28,155 bases of DNA. Origin: a virus. Location of the stretch: positions 1-28,155 of the IMG/VR virus record IMGVR_UViG_3300036401_000828. One strand, 5' to 3'. The notes under the pieces were generated by a model. The model saw nothing but the letters and a program-made list of their open reading frames with translations, made no database searches and was not told the DNA's origin. The translations under genes and the position numbers were made by a program. This document shows positions 348 through 13,688 of the stretch, in pieces (position 1 is the stretch's first letter; every line of letters starts with the position of its first letter).

Positions 348-1592
348 TCACGGATCGATCTGCACCACGTCAAACGCCCTGCCTACCACATCGATCTGGG
401 TAACGCCGGAAGCAAGAGCATCTGTGTTCGTATCGAAGATATCGATCTCCGCGCCCTGCACCACGTAAATAACGTTGCGGCCGGAGATAGGCTGGAGGCC
501 CGTCACGTCAAAGTTCTGGCGGAAGGCCGATTCTGGGGGGAAGACAGCGGCAGATGTGCCGGTGTTGAAGATACTCAGGCAGCCGCGGACGGTATTGGCG
601 GCCGTGCCGGGCTCGACCGTACATCCGGCGGCGCCAACGTAAACGCGGTTGTTGGCGAATGCCATCTTTTCGTGGTCGCCGTCGGTAATCGGGATTGCGG
701 CTCCGGCGGTGAGTGCAGTGGCATTAATCACGGTCAGCACGCCGCAACGGGAAATCGGGCAGCCTACGACTGGGGGTGGCTGTGGCGGCGTTCCGGCAAC
801 GTAAAGATTGGAACCGTTGATCAGCCCAACCGTCGCACCAGCAACGGGAATCGGCAGGATCGGAGCGAAGGTGGCCGTGGGATTTGTAAAGTCGGCAAAG
901 GTCACGCTGGCGTTGGTGCCACCGCATTCAGCGCCGCAGTTCAGGATGAAAGCCTGCGTCTCACTGCCATTGAATACCGCGTTAACGGGCTGGTCAAGAT
1001 GCGTTGCATCTGTAACCACCTGGACAGCCGAAGTGGCCGTATCGACCACAAAAAAGGTGCTGGTGTTGGGCGGAATCTGCCCTTGCGGATCGGGAAAAAC
1101 CAGCAGCTTGGTCCCCTTGGGACTCATCACCAGCCGGCGCGCATTGCCGATGCGCAGCACCGGACGCGCGACGCCGTTGGTGGTGTCAACGGATTGAACG
1201 AAGCCGAAGTTGCGCATGGCTGCCCAGGCATTTTTACCGTCGGGGCTGATGGCGATATCAAAGGGTTGATCGCCTATAGGGGCAGGGAAAGTTACGGCTT
1301 CCGTGGTGTTATCAATGACCGTAATCAGGCTGCTGGAGCTGTCCATTACGATGGTGGTCCCGCCGGCCGTAAGCATTTTGGTGGGAGAAGAAACGCCCAG
1401 AACTTTGCTGCTAAGCAGGTCTTTCTGCGCATCCATCACGTTCACCGTGCCGGCGGCCGTATTGGAAAGCAATACTCGTTTTTTCAACCCGGTTGGCTTG
1501 GGTGCGTTATTGCTGGTGCTGGAACCGCAGCCGGCCATGGCCAGGGCAAGACTTGCAATCAACAAATGTGAAAGATAGCTGTTTCGCCGCAT
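348..1592 (-). CDS. Secreted lipoprotein with YVTN/YncE-like beta-propeller
   Basis: The 414-residue product starts with a lipoprotein signal: a basic N-terminus, a hydrophobic stretch and the lipobox LAMAGC, with the lipidated cysteine near residue 22. The rest is a run of beta-rich repeats with phrases such as TAAGTVNVMDAQ, TVIDNTTEAV and DIAISPDGKNAWAA, typical of the YVTN/lactonase-like propeller fold (family knowledge). It would be anchored in an envelope membrane facing outward; ligand unknown. Such paralogous lipoproteins are common in Acidobacteria, so I read it as host flank rather than phage cargo. Its codons look ordinary and the frame is intact. A TATAAT-like box lies about 55 bases upstream. 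The ribosome site is weak, so the start is chosen for the signal peptide. Confidence 0.85.
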   Translation of the reverse strand: MRRNSYLSHLLIASLALAMAGCGSSTSNNAPKPTGLKKRVLLSNTAAGTVNVMDAQKDLLSSKVLGVSSPTKMLTAGGTTIVMDSSSSLITVIDNTTEAVTFPAPIGDQPFDIAISPDGKNAWAAMRNFGFVQSVDTTNGVARPVLRIGNARRLVMSPKGTKLLVFPDPQGQIPPNTSTFFVVDTATSAVQVVTDATHLDQPVNAVFNGSETQAFILNCGAECGGTNASVTFADFTNPTATFAPILPIPVAGATVGLINGSNLYVAGTPPQPPPVVGCPISRCGVLTVINATALTAGAAIPITDGDHEKMAFANNRVYVGAAGCTVEPGTAANTVRGCLSIFNTGTSAAVFPPESAFRQNFDVTGLQPISGRNVIYVVQGAEIDIFDTNTDALASGVTQIDVVGRAFDVVQIDP

Positions 1593-7378: not shown

Positions 7379-7584
7379 GCTTTCGATTCCGGTCGCTTCA
7401 ACACTTCCCGAGGTTGTATGCCATTTTCCGGCCCCACAATTCCGTTGGCCTCCATAAGGTTCATCAACTGCAGGGCGCGCCCATATCCAATTCCCAAGCG
7501 GCGTTGCAGCAAACTATTGGAGGCTTTGCCAAACTCGATCACCAGATTCACGGCATCCTGATAAAGCTCGTCTTGCTCACTCAT
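7375..7584 (-). CDS. Stand-alone FtsK gamma (winged-helix) domain protein
   Basis: The 69-residue product is almost wholly an FtsK gamma domain: DELYQDAVNLVIEFGKASNS, then LQRRLGIGYGRALQLMNLME, then GIVGPENG and REVL. In FtsK/SpoIIIE this C-terminal winged helix reads KOPS/SRS DNA and activates XerD at dif. Here no motor domain is attached. The recognition helix is altered: the N, R and E of the usual N-R-A-A-R-x-x-E stretch are G, Q and N, so DNA specificity may differ. The gene lies between tape measure and distal tail genes, overlaps the latter by ATGA, and takes its GAGGGA ribosome site from a dispersed repeat. Its role in a tail module is unknown. Confidence 0.85.
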   Translation of the reverse strand: MSEQDELYQDAVNLVIEFGKASNSLLQRRLGIGYGRALQLMNLMEANGIVGPENGIQPREVLKRPESKA

Positions 7585-7589
7585 AGGGT

Positions 7590-7608
7590 TCCCTCACTTC
7601 GTTCGGGA
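7590..7608. repeat. Dispersed 19-bp imperfect palindrome, copy 2
   Basis: TCCCTCACTTCGTTCGGGA matches the copy at 316-334 at 16 of 19 positions. It occupies the only gap between the tape measure and FtsK-gamma genes, and its minus strand provides the GAGGGA that serves as ribosome site for the latter. Confidence 0.5.
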
Positions 7609-7619
7609 CAATTTTTCAT

Positions 7620-10600
7620 CTAGTGCCCTTCCGTTGCGTGGCGATCCAGTGCGCGTTGCAGCATCTCCGCACCGCCGCGTTTCGCCCAGTCATCAAAGCT
7701 TCTAGCATCTATCGCGTTCACGACCAACGTGATATGGGAAGTGCTTCTCACCTTGCCTCCGGCGTTGATCGTGGCAAGAAGTTCCTTATTGCTTCTCGAG
7801 GGGCCGGGTTTAATCACTGTCTCACCATCTTCCAAAATTGCCGTGCCGCGTCCGCCGCTCGCCCTGAATACTCCGCCTGTATCGAACTGTGGCGGACCAA
7901 ACACCTGGGCGCTGCGGCGGTCGCGCTCCGCCTGCGTGCTGCGGATGTGCGCTTCAGCCGCGTCAATCGCGGGATCTACCTTTTTATTGAAAACGTCTTT
8001 GCCCTGGCTCTGCAGCGCGCTCAGTTGCTTTTGTGAATCAGTGCGCAGCTGCTCCAGCTGCTGGATGGCCGAGCTGGAGTCGATCTGGAAACCATCAAAG
8101 CCTGTGCTGATTTGCGTGATGTCCGGCAGCAGCGTGTTATCGGCCAGCGCGTTCGCTTGTTTCTTGCGCTTGTTGCCGCCAAAGATGCCGCCGAAGATCC
8201 CGCCCAGCAAACCAACCACGCCACCGATGAGCGCGCCGATAGGTCCAGCGGCCAGGAAGCCGGTGAGAGCGCCGCTGCCCGCGCCCGCAAGCGAGCCCAG
8301 AAAACCGCCGTGGCTTTCTCCCACGCCAAAGCCGATCAGTCCACCAGACAGGCCCGCCAGAATTTGCGAATTGCCCAGGATCGCCAGCATCGACAGCAGA
8401 CCACCGATCTGCCCAGCCTTGCCGCCGAAATTGCCGACAATGCCGGGAGCGAGCGCCGCAAGGCCAACCAAAGGAGATCCAGCGGCGAATGAGCTGCTGC
8501 GCGCGGAAGATCCAGCCACGCTGGAAGCGCCCGCTGTAATCCCGCCCAGGGCATCCGTTAGCGTCGACGTGGTGAGCGCGTTGCTGGCCGATGGAAGCAA
8601 CCCACCAGTCGCAGCGCTGCTGCCGGCAATCGCGCTCGTAAGGCCGCTGCCTCCCGCGAATGCCGATGGATCGCTGAAGATGCCGCCCGGCTGAAATGCA
8701 GCGCCAGAAGGTGCGCTATTGCTTCCACTGCCGCCAAAGAGACTGCCCAGGATCGATGTGCCCGCGCCGCTCCCACCGCCGCCGCCGAAGACGCCAGCGC
8801 CGGTTGAGCCAGGCCCAAACACGATGGAGCCAAGGATGCTGCCGGCAGCGTTCTTCATGATGTTGAGCGAGAGAATCCACTGCGCCAAGATCTGGAAAAA
8901 CAGCTTTTCCATGTTGGAGAGAATGCGCTTGCCGATGTTGCCGCTGGCGATATCGTCAAACACAGACTGCAGGTCGCTGCCAAGGCTTTCAGTCAAACGC
9001 TTGTTCTCCTCGCGAATGCGTATATCAGCCTGCACAATCGCGTCATAGCGCTTTGCGTCCGCATCCTGATTGATGGCGAGTATCTGGTCTCGCGTGAGAT
9101 CCTCCGCTGCCAGCTCCCTGAGTTTCTGGTCTTCAATGGCGCGCTCGCGCCGGTTTAGTTCAATCTGTATCTGCGCGCTGGCGCGCTGCCACTCCGGCAC
9201 CGCCGCAAGCGCAGCGTCTTCTTGCGCCGTCTTCATGTCCTCAGCCGCACGCTGCTGCATCTCCACGGTGCGGGCGAGTATGCGCGCGTCTTTATCGGCG
9301 GTAACCTTATGGGACTCCCTCAGCTTCTGCTGCGCTTCGGCATCAGCAAGATCGATTTCAGCCAGGTATTTTTGCCATGCTTCAGGACTCGGAGCTTTCT
9401 CATACTCTGCACGGGCCTTTGATGCGGCCTCTTCCTGATGAGCAAAGATGAGATCGTCGCCCTGGAGGAACGTGTCGCGAGTTTTATCCTGGATAGCAGC
9501 GAGTTCGGCTGCATTCTGAATGGACGAGACTCGTATCTTTTCGTTCGTGTCCTGATGGATTTTGGCGATCTGCGCCTGGTACTCCTGGGTCTTCTGCACT
9601 TCCGCCGCGCTCAGCCCCATTTTCTGAACGTCTTCGGCGAGCGTCTCTTTAATGTGATCGGCTTCCTCCTGTTTTATTTTTGCGATGCCAGAGAGAGCGT
9701 TTTCCGTGACCTGATCTCGCAGCTTCATGGTTTCCATGGCTTCCTGTCTACGGAGTTCCACGGTCTGCGCTGCGGCTTTATTGTTGGCATCCACGATAAG
9801 CGCTGCTGCCGCTTTGTTTACATTGGCGATGGCAACGGGGTCCTGGTTTGCATCCAGATGATATTCGCGGCCTATGTCCGCTAGGGCGTTCGCGCGTTCC
9901 TGCGCGATCCTGGCGATTCCGCTCTTGCCAATCAGCGCTGTCGATTCTTGCGATCTTGCTACTTCGTCATTGAGGTGCTTGGTCATTCCTGTGATGGCCT
10001 CAAGCACTACACGTCTTTTCTCCTCAATTTCCAGCGCCTTGCCCTGAAGTTCAGCGCTTACGGCGCCGTTGATCGTTCCAGAAAACAGGAACGCTGTGAT
10101 CTTGCCTTCCAGCGTGGCTTGTTCTGCAACCATCTGGCTTCGCGAGCTCTCGATCGCAGAAGCTTTATTGAGCACCGTAATCTGTGAATTCAATTGATTC
10201 AGGTGCTGTTGCCCTACTTCAAGCGTCTTCGGATTTACAAATGCCTCGTTGCTGGCCTTGACCGTTTCAGCGCGTATCTGCTGCACGGCCTTGGTATAAC
10301 CACCCAGCTCAGTTGCGCCATTGGCTATTTCCTCTCCGATCTTGACGAAGATTGGAGCAACGCCCGCAAGTATCCCGATAGGAAATGCCGCTGCCATCAG
10401 CGGCCCAAGCAGTGCGCTGCGCGCCGCGACCTGATTGAGCGCGCGGTTTTGCAATCCCAGCGTTTGCTCCAGCAGCCTGCCGGCAACATTGGCCTTCATC
10501 TGCTCGCTTGTCATTCCCATGAATGCGGTGGATGAATTTTTCACCATGGGAGCCCAGTCTTGAAATCTGACCGTGCCTTGAAGCGTCTTGGCGGATGCTG

Positions 10601-10871: not shown

Positions 10872-11273
10872 CTATTTTCTTTTCTTGAACTCCATGCGGC
10901 AGACACGGCAGCGGATCGCCGTGCTGGAATGCTGGCGCGCGCCGCACTGCGGGCACTCAGGATGATCGCGCTCAAATTCCTGCTGCGCCGCCGCAAGAGC
11001 GCGCAGGCCCTCGGCTTCCTCAGCCAGAATCGTGAGCTCCACGTCGGCATCGATCATGCTGCGTATCCAGAACAGATATGCGGCATAGTCGTAAAAGCCG
11101 CTGGCCACGCTGCGCACGGGAACGGTCTTGGCAAGAGCAACGGCATACGCCATCAGGTCTTCTTCGGCGCTGAGGCTCTCGATCTGGCGCGCGAGATCGT
11201 CCGCGCCCAGGGATTCGTTCATCAGCTCAAGCGCCGCTTGGCGTATGCCGCCCATGTCTTGCGTAACAATCAC
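10872..11273 (-). CDS. Small protein with C-terminal zinc ribbon, between tail chaperone and tape measure
   Basis: I place the start at a GTG (11273) just after the stop of the upstream gene, giving 133 residues. An ATG six codons in is the alternative. The reading frame stays open for 47 codons further upstream, but that part is an arginine-rich shadow of the chaperone gene. The N-terminal helical region (IRQAALELMNESLGADDLAR) is followed by a two-knuckle CxxC...CxxC pattern (CPQCG, CRVC) and a basic tail, so zinc binding is likely. In siphophages this slot is the second tail assembly chaperone, often made by frameshift. The relative frame here would need +1 or -2 slippage, and I see no clear slip site. 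Confidence 0.65.
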   Translation of the reverse strand: MIVTQDMGGIRQAALELMNESLGADDLARQIESLSAEEDLMAYAVALAKTVPVRSVASGFYDYAAYLFWIRSMIDADVELTILAEEAEGLRALAAAQQEFERDHPECPQCGARQHSSTAIRCRVCRMEFKKRK

Positions 11274-11277
11274 CTGG

Positions 11278-12030
11278 CTACGCAGCCTCCGCTGCGGCAG
11301 CTTCCGGCTGCGTGTTAAAGAGTTGCGCCACGGCTTCAGCTTTGTGGTAGCCATCCATTTCGCGCCGGATCTGCTCCGGGCCTTCCAGCGGCTTGCCGGC
11401 AGCGCCGTATCCATCCACGGAAAGGATCAGCTGGTCATACAGTTCCAGCAGCAGCTTGTTCCGGAGCGAATAGACCGTGGTGCTGCCTTTGCGCGTGCCG
11501 CCGATCACTTTGCTGATGGCTCCTCCGCGCATGTAGCGTTTCTTCTGCTCAACGGTTGGCGGCGTGAAACGGTGCACCAGGCCTTTGTATTGGGTGACCT
11601 GTCCGGGTGCCGTGGTCTGCGACCAGTGCGCGTCGATCCGCGTCTCAATGGCGTCGCAGTCGAGCGGCTTATCGTCTTCCTCTTCAGAGATAAACACTGA
11701 GCGCAGAAGCCCGGCAACAGTCACGGAGTGGCGCGGCAGTACCTTCTTGAAATCTTCCGGCGTGGTGAGCTCGCGGGAATAGCCGACGACGCGCGTCACC
11801 GTGGATTCAAACAGCTCAATGCCGGCCGTGTTGAAGTCAGTGGTGTTCAGCTGCGCCACGCCATCATTGCGGCTGGAGAGATACAGCCCGGCGAAGTACT
11901 GCTCCCAGTCCGGCTGAAGAATTCTGCGGAAGTAAAAGGTGTAATCGCGCTTGCCTTCACGGATGGGGATCACGCGCGGTTCGTCGAGCATGAGCAGTGA
12001 AGGTGGATTCTGTGGGGTTGCCGCTTCCAT
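11278..12030 (-). CDS. Tail assembly chaperone candidate
   Basis: The 250-residue soluble protein sits directly between the major-tail-like gene and the zinc-ribbon/tape measure pair, the slot of lambda gpG-type chaperones. It starts with a strong AGGAG site before the ATG. The sequence is mixed alpha/beta (REGKRDYTFYFRRILQPDWE, KYMRGGAISKVIGGTR) and ends in an alanine-rich tail. It has no signal peptide or membrane segment. I know no single motif to prove the family, so the role is inferred from position. It may count tape-measure length or hold the tape measure during tube assembly. Confidence 0.6.
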   Translation of the reverse strand: MEAATPQNPPSLLMLDEPRVIPIREGKRDYTFYFRRILQPDWEQYFAGLYLSSRNDGVAQLNTTDFNTAGIELFESTVTRVVGYSRELTTPEDFKKVLPRHSVTVAGLLRSVFISEEEDDKPLDCDAIETRIDAHWSQTTAPGQVTQYKGLVHRFTPPTVEQKKRYMRGGAISKVIGGTRKGSTTVYSLRNKLLLELYDQLILSVDGYGAAGKPLEGPEQIRREMDGYHKAEAVAQLFNTQPEAAAAEAA

Positions 12031-12083
12031 AATGTTCTCCTGAAATTTGATTTGTGAATTGTTCTGCGTGGAACGTATCTGGC

Positions 12084-12155
12084 GAGATCCGCGAAGCGGT
12101 GCGTCTCTCAGAGCAGCGAAGCGGTGCTGCTCTCATCAGCGAAGCGATGCTGATG
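12084..12155 (-). repeat. Three tandem hairpins with a shared loop and different stems
   Basis: Three adjacent inverted repeats lie in the untranslated gap between the major-tail and chaperone genes. The second has perfect AGAGCAGC/GCTGCTCT arms (12110-12117, 12126-12133), and the third perfect CATCAGC/GCTGATG arms (12134-12140, 12149-12155). The first is imperfect (GAGA/TCTC outer arms at 12084-12087 and 12104-12107). All share the loop core GCGAAGCG(G/A)TGC while the stems differ and stay complementary, which points to selected RNA or DNA structure. Confidence 0.8.
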
Positions 12156-12189
12156 TCTTACTAGACTTGCAACTTACCACATCTTTGGA

Positions 12190-12223
12190 CCGCAGGGCAG
12201 AGCTTTTTTTCTCTACCCTGCGG
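12190..12223 (-). terminator. Strong hairpin after the major-tail gene
   Basis: Arms CCGCAGGG and CCCTGCGG plus an inner AGAG/CTCT pair, with one mismatch between, enclose an eight-base loop. On the transcribed minus strand the loop is A-rich. No T-run follows, so it is not a textbook intrinsic terminator. It may stabilise the upstream mRNA or attenuate downstream transcription after a highly expressed gene. Confidence 0.5.
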
Positions 12224-12272
12224 CAGAACCAGCGCCGTCCTACCCAACTAACTCAGCGCCAGCAGCCACTCG

Positions 12273-13688
12273 CTAAGCGCCCACGCCGTAGGCGCTCTGG
12301 TTATTCGTGACGATTGCCGTGAAAACTTCCTGCGTTGATGGCTTGAGCACGGCATTGTCGCCGGCATTCATCTGCCACATCTGCTCGCGTCCGCTCTGCC
12401 CGATCTGGAAGGTATCGAACAGGACGTAAGGCGATCCCAGCGTCATCTGCTGCGCCGCGCCGGAGTTGGTCACGATCTGAATTTCCTTCTGCGTGTCGTT
12501 TTCTGAGATCGTGCGCATGTCGTCGGTGCTCGTCGCTTTCACGTTGACGGTCCAGTTCACGCGCTGTTTCAGCACCTTCATGAACGTGGCCCAGAAGCCT
12601 CCGCCCGGAGCGCGGTTCGGCGTCATTTCGCAGGAGATATGCACTTGCCAATCGGTGACGCGCTCTTTGATGCTGCTGAGCGCCGTGGTTGCCGTAGGCA
12701 GCGCCGCTCCAGCGGCAAAACCCGTTGCAGGCTCCGTGAAGACGCCGGCTGCGGCGAACGGTCCACCAGCCTGTTTTGTTTCCGTTCCCGTGGTGATGGA
12801 GCCGTAGACATTCACGCCAGTGACTCCGGGCGGAAGCGCGGCAGGCATCGTGACCTTGGAAACGCTGTTCGCAGGCGTCACGAATGAGAATTCCTGGCTG
12901 CCAACTGTTTCGCCGGCTGCGTTCACGTAAGTCAATTTATAGAAAACCGTCCGCTGAGTAAGCGCGCCCAGCACCGTGCTGGCAAACGTGAACTGGAAGC
13001 GCGGATCGGTGAGGTCCGGCGCGGATGGCCCGATCTTGATATCGGTATCGGAACCATAAAGGAAGAGCGGCGCGCTGAGCGCGGGGAACGTGATCGCTCC
13101 GTCCACCTTCTTGCCGCTGCCGATCATCTTGAACTGCACCTGCAGCGGACCCGATTCCTTGCCGCTGATGACGAGATCCAGTATGCACATGTCCGGCAAC
13201 TGGAAGATCACGTCATTGGTTTCCTGGCACAGCAGCGTGGTCACCGGCATCTGGTTCGTCGCTTGCAGGAACTTCATGGTGTGCACGAAAGGACCGGCGC
13301 CGGTGACCGTCTCAGTGCCCAGGATGAAGAACAGCGCCCATCCGGCCAGAATCGCTTCCAGGTCCATCGTCGCATCGAACGAAGTGTTTTCCATGGTGCG
13401 AATCTTGGCCGCCGCCCACTGATGGCCTTTGTTGGCCATCTGCTCATCCGTGAAGAAATCGGGCTGATGCGCGGCAGTATAGTTGCCGGCATTGCGCGGG
13501 CGGATGGTATAGCTGGCCGCCGCCACGGGCGTGAGAAACGCGTTTTGCTTGTTGGGCGCAATGGCCACGTTGCGGATGTCGAGCACGTCCTGCGGTTCGT
13601 AGGCCATGCCGAATAACAGAAATCCTGCCGCCGTCAGAAGTGCAACAGCCAGCGGTCCCAAATGAATTGCAAACAGTAAGAAAATCAA
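12273..13688 (-). CDS. Major tail tube protein candidate with hydrophobic N-terminal leader
   Basis: The frame opens at a TTG (13688) with a perfect GGAGGT six bases upstream, and this start overlaps the stop of the previous gene as TTGA. It encodes a hydrophobic leader (LAVALLTAAGFLLFG) before MAYEPQDVLDIRN. The alternative is the ATG at 13607, giving 444 residues, but its ribosome site is weak. The body (PNKQNAFLTPVAAASYTI, VRPRNAGNYTA-like turns, a beta-rich middle) and place before the chaperone fit a tail tube protein. Residues around 290-360 look like an added beta domain (VTGVNVYGSITTGTETKQAG). A hydrophobic leader is unexpected for a virion protein, so the true start needs checking. 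Confidence 0.65.
   Translation of the reverse strand: MIFLLFAIHLGPLAVALLTAAGFLLFGMAYEPQDVLDIRNVAIAPNKQNAFLTPVAAASYTIRPRNAGNYTAAHQPDFFTDEQMANKGHQWAAAKIRTMENTSFDATMDLEAILAGWALFFILGTETVTGAGPFVHTMKFLQATNQMPVTTLLCQETNDVIFQLPDMCILDLVISGKESGPLQVQFKMIGSGKKVDGAITFPALSAPLFLYGSDTDIKIGPSAPDLTDPRFQFTFASTVLGALTQRTVFYKLTYVNAAGETVGSQEFSFVTPANSVSKVTMPAALPPGVTGVNVYGSITTGTETKQAGGPFAAAGVFTEPATGFAAGAALPTATTALSSIKERVTDWQVHISCEMTPNRAPGGGFWATFMKVLKQRVNWTVNVKATSTDDMRTISENDTQKEIQIVTNSGAAQQMTLGSPYVLFDTFQIGQSGREQMWQMNAGDNAVLKPSTQEVFTAIVTNNQSAYGVGA

Follow-up and report, generated by a model that had tools for sequence, protein, structure and literature searches.

The ratio of phage tail proteins expressed from one operon is usually credited to start-site strength and to frameshifting. 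Control from the leader of an mRNA takes several described forms: leaders in which a hairpin loop is paired to the mRNA's own Shine-Dalgarno sequence (SD) make up a general class (pseudoknot-type translational control), and phage RNA operators such as those of MS2 coat protein and T4 gp43, the latter with an 8-nt loop, are bound by protein. The architecture nearest to the element described here is that of the guanidine-II riboswitch (mini-ykkC), in which tandem small leader hairpins share their loops and follow an anti-SD translational scheme (PMC2864571; PMC7544219). The recurrent loop motif of the element, CUNCG, recalls UNCG/Z-turn loops (PMC5311481).

Our element lies in the leader of a tail-assembly-chaperone-like gene on a 28-kb IMG/VR phage contig (the window, that is the whole stretch of 28,155 nt analysed). 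Like guanidine-II, it consists of tandem, loop-sharing leader hairpins with a putative anti-SD scheme, but its loops are ANNNCUNC and not ACGR, it has at least three hairpins, the last being itself anti-SD in a distant clade (clade B), and the gene that it would control encodes a phage tail component. From the loop-SD class it takes complementarity to the gene's own SD together with co-variation, both found in clade B, whereas the window matches codons 2-4 instead; it differs from this class in combining such pairing with tandem CUNCG hairpins. Small fixed-loop hairpins beside a start site also characterize the MS2 and T4 gp43 operators, but here they come as several tandem copies with another loop sequence, and no candidate binding domain was found. 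As for UNCG tetraloops, the loop predicted here has 8 nt, its G pairs within the stem, no canonical closing C-G pair surrounds UNCG and the base after the G is usually C. A search of Rfam 15 with the window leader and ten relatives gave no match, and a search of one literature collection found no paper on such a leader. The leader RNA is thus new to Rfam, and we file it as a new RNA of the loop-SD leader kind, not under any named family.

The hairpin array and its setting

Genes for terminase, portal, head, capsid, neck and tail are present in the window, and the minus strand encodes nearly all of its genes. The leader separates two genes named by synteny (Table 1), neither of whose products has a match in Pfam or PHROGs. 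The downstream 250-aa protein lies ahead of a tape-measure-length ORF and is overlapped by a shifted-frame ORF, a position usual for tail-assembly chaperones. Its AlphaFold model is confident when built with 61 homologues (pLDDT 91.8; with only 6 homologues it was poor, pLDDT 47), a fold search of this model against PDB and BFVD returned no match at E <= 0.001, and no RNA-binding domain was recognised in the gene product. The two overlapping frames recall the G/GT tail chaperones that arise by frameshifting; the overlap yielded no identifiable slippery site.

Table 1. Coordinates of the leader, its hairpins and the neighbouring genes in the window
Feature	Position	Strand	Remarks
ORF that overlaps the chaperone-like gene at its end	10872..11414	-	frame-shifted overlap of 137 nt, G/GT-like; context only
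Tail-assembly-chaperone-like gene (250 aa)	11278..12030	-	putatively controlled gene; named by synteny
Proposed loop target GAAGCGG	12021..12027	-	codons 2-4, directly after AUG; 7-bp exact complement of CCGCUUC; wobble positions frozen
Shine-Dalgarno AGGAG of the chaperone-like gene	12037..12041	-	hairpin 3 of the distant clade targets the SD; no clear pairing in the window
Leader (intergenic region)	12031..12272	-	242 nt between tail-protein and chaperone-like genes; contains the entire element
Hairpin 3 (weaker)	12084..12107	-	GAGACGC-ACCGCUUC-GCGGAUCUC, 2-nt bulge; loop 12093-12100
Hairpin 2	12110..12133	-	AGAGCAGC-ACCGCUUC-GCUGCUCU; loop 12118-12125; best R1 match in the window
Hairpin 1 (first in mRNA)	12134..12155	-	CAUCAGC-AUCGCUUC-GCUGAUG; loop 12141-12148
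Hairpin with A-rich loop, upstream of the array	12190..12223	-	kept in near relatives (seen in L138-L143); no U-run
Probable major tail (tube) protein gene, upstream	12273..13688	-	named by synteny

A preliminary description of this DNA had reported three tandem hairpins with a shared loop at 12084-12155 on the plus strand, and all three copies are indeed present: GAGATCCGC-GAAGCGGT-GCGTCTC at 12084-12107 (7-bp stem with a 2-nt bulge on one side), AGAGCAGC-GAAGCGGT-GCTGCTCT at 12110-12133 (8 bp) and CATCAGC-GAAGCGAT-GCTGATG at 12134-12155 (7 bp). The strand, however, has to be reversed: because nearly all genes are on the minus strand, the RNA is the complement, with an 8-nt loop A(C/U)CGCUUC. 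Consistent with this orientation, the minus strand folds better than its shuffles (z = -3.1, with 1 of 200 as good), whereas the plus strand is unremarkable (z = -0.86). The window contains exactly three copies of the 12-mer GCGAAGCGRTGC, all in the array, against a mean of 0.06 in shuffled sequences, which never reached three. A search for further copies of the loop, as the preliminary description had proposed, found none beyond the three anywhere in the contig.

Two familiar identities were rejected. An intrinsic terminator would show a U-run behind its GC hairpin; no U-run follows the window's hairpins, and none was found upstream of the array either. The GGA loops of CsrA-type sites are absent from the mRNA strand. 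Directly upstream of the array, the hairpin with the A-rich loop is followed by TCCAAAGATGTGGTA.

Compensatory changes among relatives

Protein and DNA scans recovered near-identical arrays at loci L004-L007, L127 and L131, and diverged arrays at L130/L155, L144, L148, L152, L154 and L166 as well as at L170 and L177 in Acidobacteriota genomes. Together with the window these form clade A; the chaperones of the first six relatives compared share 47-75% identity with that of the window. Every listed relative has a set of three hairpins in the same position, although in L170 the loop of the third is unrelated; one distant relative (L156) is without the array.

The stems of clade A are largely rewritten, and 89% of cells nevertheless pair among 26 distinct hairpins. 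Compensatory changes occur in each of the 8 stem pairs, with 60 cells changed on both sides compared to 20.3 in shuffles and 4 to 21 with the partners slid; the hairpins were chosen by loop sequence and the two innermost pairs, so that those two pairs are biased while the outer six are not, and since the sequences are related, p-values overstate their independence. Read on the mRNA, wobble pairs number 19 G.U against 3 A.C, which indicates that the element acts as RNA. The co-variation claimed in the preliminary description was drawn from three copies within a single sequence; it holds between phages too, and the idea of a selected structure is supported.

A larger, distant clade with the same arrangement

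Clade B comprises genome loci L181-L192 and 80 viral loci (L206-L285, with 60 distinct leaders), whose chaperones are about 30-40% identical to that of the window. Its leaders mostly have three hairpins in the same place ahead of the chaperone-like gene. The loops of hairpins 1 and 2 mostly end in CUNC, followed by G, with all four bases occurring at N, and CUNCG lies near the hairpin-1 position in 54 of the 60 leaders. When the flanks were located by this motif alone, leaving pairing unused, 83% of positions paired, compared to 34-52% when slid, and wobble pairs in this set again favoured the mRNA strand (29 vs 11). RNAalifold applied to 34 of the leaders gave three helices; of their 16 pairs, 13 show compensatory changes.

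A covariance model built from those 34 leaders matches the array of the window with 26.4 bits (E = 1e-4) at 12063-12134; nothing else in the window falls below E 0.2. From this span, hairpins 2 and 3 of the window seem to occupy the positions of hairpins 1 and 2 of the model, and hairpin 1 of the window may be an extra unit relative to it. In 9 of 11 curated clade B loci (for example L181, L185, L186, L190 and L192) a terminator-like hairpin with a U-run precedes hairpin 1 by 13-54 nt, which suggests that transcription may partly stop past the tail protein gene.

Two findings tie the group to Acidobacteriota, a phylum of soil bacteria: of 397 genomes of one order, 18 have chaperone-like genes, and tail-protein matches occur in 5 of 396 genomes of the phylum. 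Tandem hairpins ahead of a tail-assembly gene are conserved across a large group of Acidobacteriota phages.

Loop complementarity to the translation start

The third hairpin of clade B is typically CAGGGU-CCUUC-ACCCUG; about 40 nt downstream of it lies the SD of the gene itself, to which the hairpin loop is complementary. Loop and SD change together: the L189 loop GGGUCCUUC pairs with SD GAAGGACCC, the L184 loop GUUCCUUC with GAAGGAAC, UUCCUCA with UGAGGAA in L181 and L186, UCCCUCA with UGAGGGA in L282 and UUCUCC with GGAGAA in L278. Across the 11 curated leaders, the last loop scores 6.59 with its own SD and 5.63 with swapped ones (p = 0.0006). For 58 automatically parsed leaders the corresponding values are 5.38 and 4.84 (at most 5.22 in 20,000 swaps), with 3.53 for shuffled sequences; an SD stays purine, so that swapped pairs already score high and what matters is how far own pairs exceed them. 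No comparable SD match is seen for loops 1 and 2 of clade B, and pairing is poor in some leaders (L217, L271 and L284). The loop of the last clade B hairpin is thus complementary to, and co-varies with, the SD of its own gene.

The same pairing was rejected for the window itself, where it amounts to CUUC/GGAG with one wobble; the SD match of clade A is at chance. Here the loop sequence CCGCUUC complements GAAGCGG, found directly after AUG in the window, L177, L148, L152, L154, L144 and the near relatives L004, L005 and L007 (L144 has two candidate starts, and this AUG is the second). The predicted duplex has -11.5 kcal/mol; when the start region was shuffled 200 times, 0 and 1 of the shuffles did as well for hairpins 2 and 3 of the window, respectively. 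Among nine clade A genes, 57 positions have an invariant amino acid and only 3 of them an identical codon; two of the three are codons 2 (GAA) and 3 (GCG). GCG accounts for 35% of alanine and GAA for 42% of glutamate codons in the window's group. Codons frozen at their wobble positions support selection at the RNA level.

Some loops have drifted (AUCACUUC in L148 and L152, ACCACUUC in L144), with at least one of the three loops keeping the full match. Codons 3-4 are changed in L166, whose loop UCGCUUCG has its match in the SD UGGAGCGA rather than in the codons; in L155 and L170 the match to codons 2-4 is poor. Because loop and target show so little variation within clade A, the swap test carries no information there, and the case for pairing with the frozen codons 2-4 is weaker than that for the SD in clade B.

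Proposed mechanism and alternative explanations

We propose, with a probability of roughly two in three, that the array is a cis-acting leader for translational control of the tail-chaperone-like gene in these Acidobacteriota phages, with a loop that folds onto the start. In such a loop-start pseudoknot the SD or the first codons would be hidden, lowering access for ribosomes, and the chaperone-like gene would be translated less than the tail protein gene upstream. The anti-start sequence would be carried by the CUNCG hairpins themselves in the window's clade, and in clade B by a separate hairpin next to two CUNCG hairpins. The leader probably acts as a brake, a direction (brake or switch) guessed from the geometry. 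The preliminary description had placed the hairpins in the leader of the tail chaperone gene and suggested that they might regulate the ratio of tail proteins; the position is correct and a role in tail-protein output likely, and the complementarity between loops and start, which that description had missed, gives the idea a concrete candidate mechanism.

Pairing is perhaps not the whole story, since three equal loops for one target are odd. In hairpins 1 and 2 CUNCG also stays constant when no sequence near the start matches it, which suggests a further role, most simply the docking of a protein or other ligand; such docking might set or release the brake, the most speculative step of the scheme. 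Taken further, the same observation leads to a reading in which the hairpins are multivalent sites for a trans-acting protein that reads CUNCG, be it an autorepressor (the chaperone or the tail protein) or a host protein, and the match to codons 2-4 is incidental. A multivalent binder would suit tandem, equal loops, as well as loops that drift elsewhere yet hold C, U and C. This reading leaves unexplained, however, why loop and SD co-vary in clade B and why codons 2-3 are frozen, and the product of the chaperone-like gene has neither a recognised RNA-binding domain nor a fold match; we consider it unlikely.

Other explanations would dispense with translation altogether. The hairpins could merely stabilise or process the mRNA, as nuclease barriers or cleavage sites at the border of differently expressed genes, an arrangement that would agree with stable stems and with the location of the array, which directly follows the tail protein gene and in clade B stands close behind the terminator-like hairpin. 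Stability alone would conserve neither the loop sequence nor the tracking of the SD by the last loop, and we regard this explanation as improbable. A DNA element, whether a recombination array or mobile palindrome, both of which had been offered in the preliminary description, or a site of single-stranded DNA hairpins, might be suspected from tandem palindromes with a common core and from the variable cargo genes just upstream in relatives. It is very improbable given the wobble bias in both clades, a plus strand that folds no better than shuffles, loops that co-vary with the SD, and the occurrence of one array per phage contig in one place, ahead of the same gene in the window's relatives. 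A dispersed, REP-like palindrome or host-wide repeat was rejected on similar grounds, as scans of Acidobacteriota under strict filters gave only phage-like loci and chance matches.

Returning to translational control by loop-start pairing, we can tentatively extend it to a phage-specific class of riboregulators, possible but so far short of probable, that would span much of the large Acidobacteriota phage group. In this class two or three CUNCG hairpins would sense a tail-assembly component or ligand and an anti-start loop would switch chaperone translation, keeping tail parts in proportion, while the target (SD or codons 2-4) would swap between clades. If the proposed control is real, these phages possess a conserved and dedicated leader RNA where the tail protein and chaperone genes meet, an added means of setting the ratio of the two proteins. 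Some 80 natural variants of one loop-start interaction would then be at hand, with predictions testable by single point mutations, for a structured RNA absent from Rfam, in a phylum whose phages have received little study.

Additional arrays and neighbouring genes

Scanning 297 Acidobacteriota genomes with the clade B model gave two more convincing copies, L286 in genome G088 (about 1070-1250) and L287 in G136 (mid locus, minus strand); the filters were strict and missed the known array of G272, so that absence elsewhere means little. In both, about four hairpins, mostly with loops of the CUNCG type and the final one with a UUCUUC or UCCUUC loop, precede a tape-measure-like gene; no chaperone-like match was noted alongside. 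G272 holds a second array (L195, G272:C7; about 650-760, minus strand) ahead of a short, gutted-looking chaperone-like remnant. A 16-mer scan of genome contigs returned chance matches in many phyla and pointed to no host, and the R2 matches L288-L290, none of which contains the array, also look like chance.

The stretch between the tail protein gene and the array varies in content. In L141, about 120-230 bases past the tail protein stop (near 7520-7630), an insert reads as the 3' half and then the 5' half of a tRNA, with matching acceptor strands; ARAGORN reported no tRNA in it. The gap holds a small ORF with an Acb2/Tad1 hairpin domain (PF24729) in L140 and L166, and by similarity in L142, and other ORFs in L148 and L170; counter-defence genes and others appear to be carried there as cargo.
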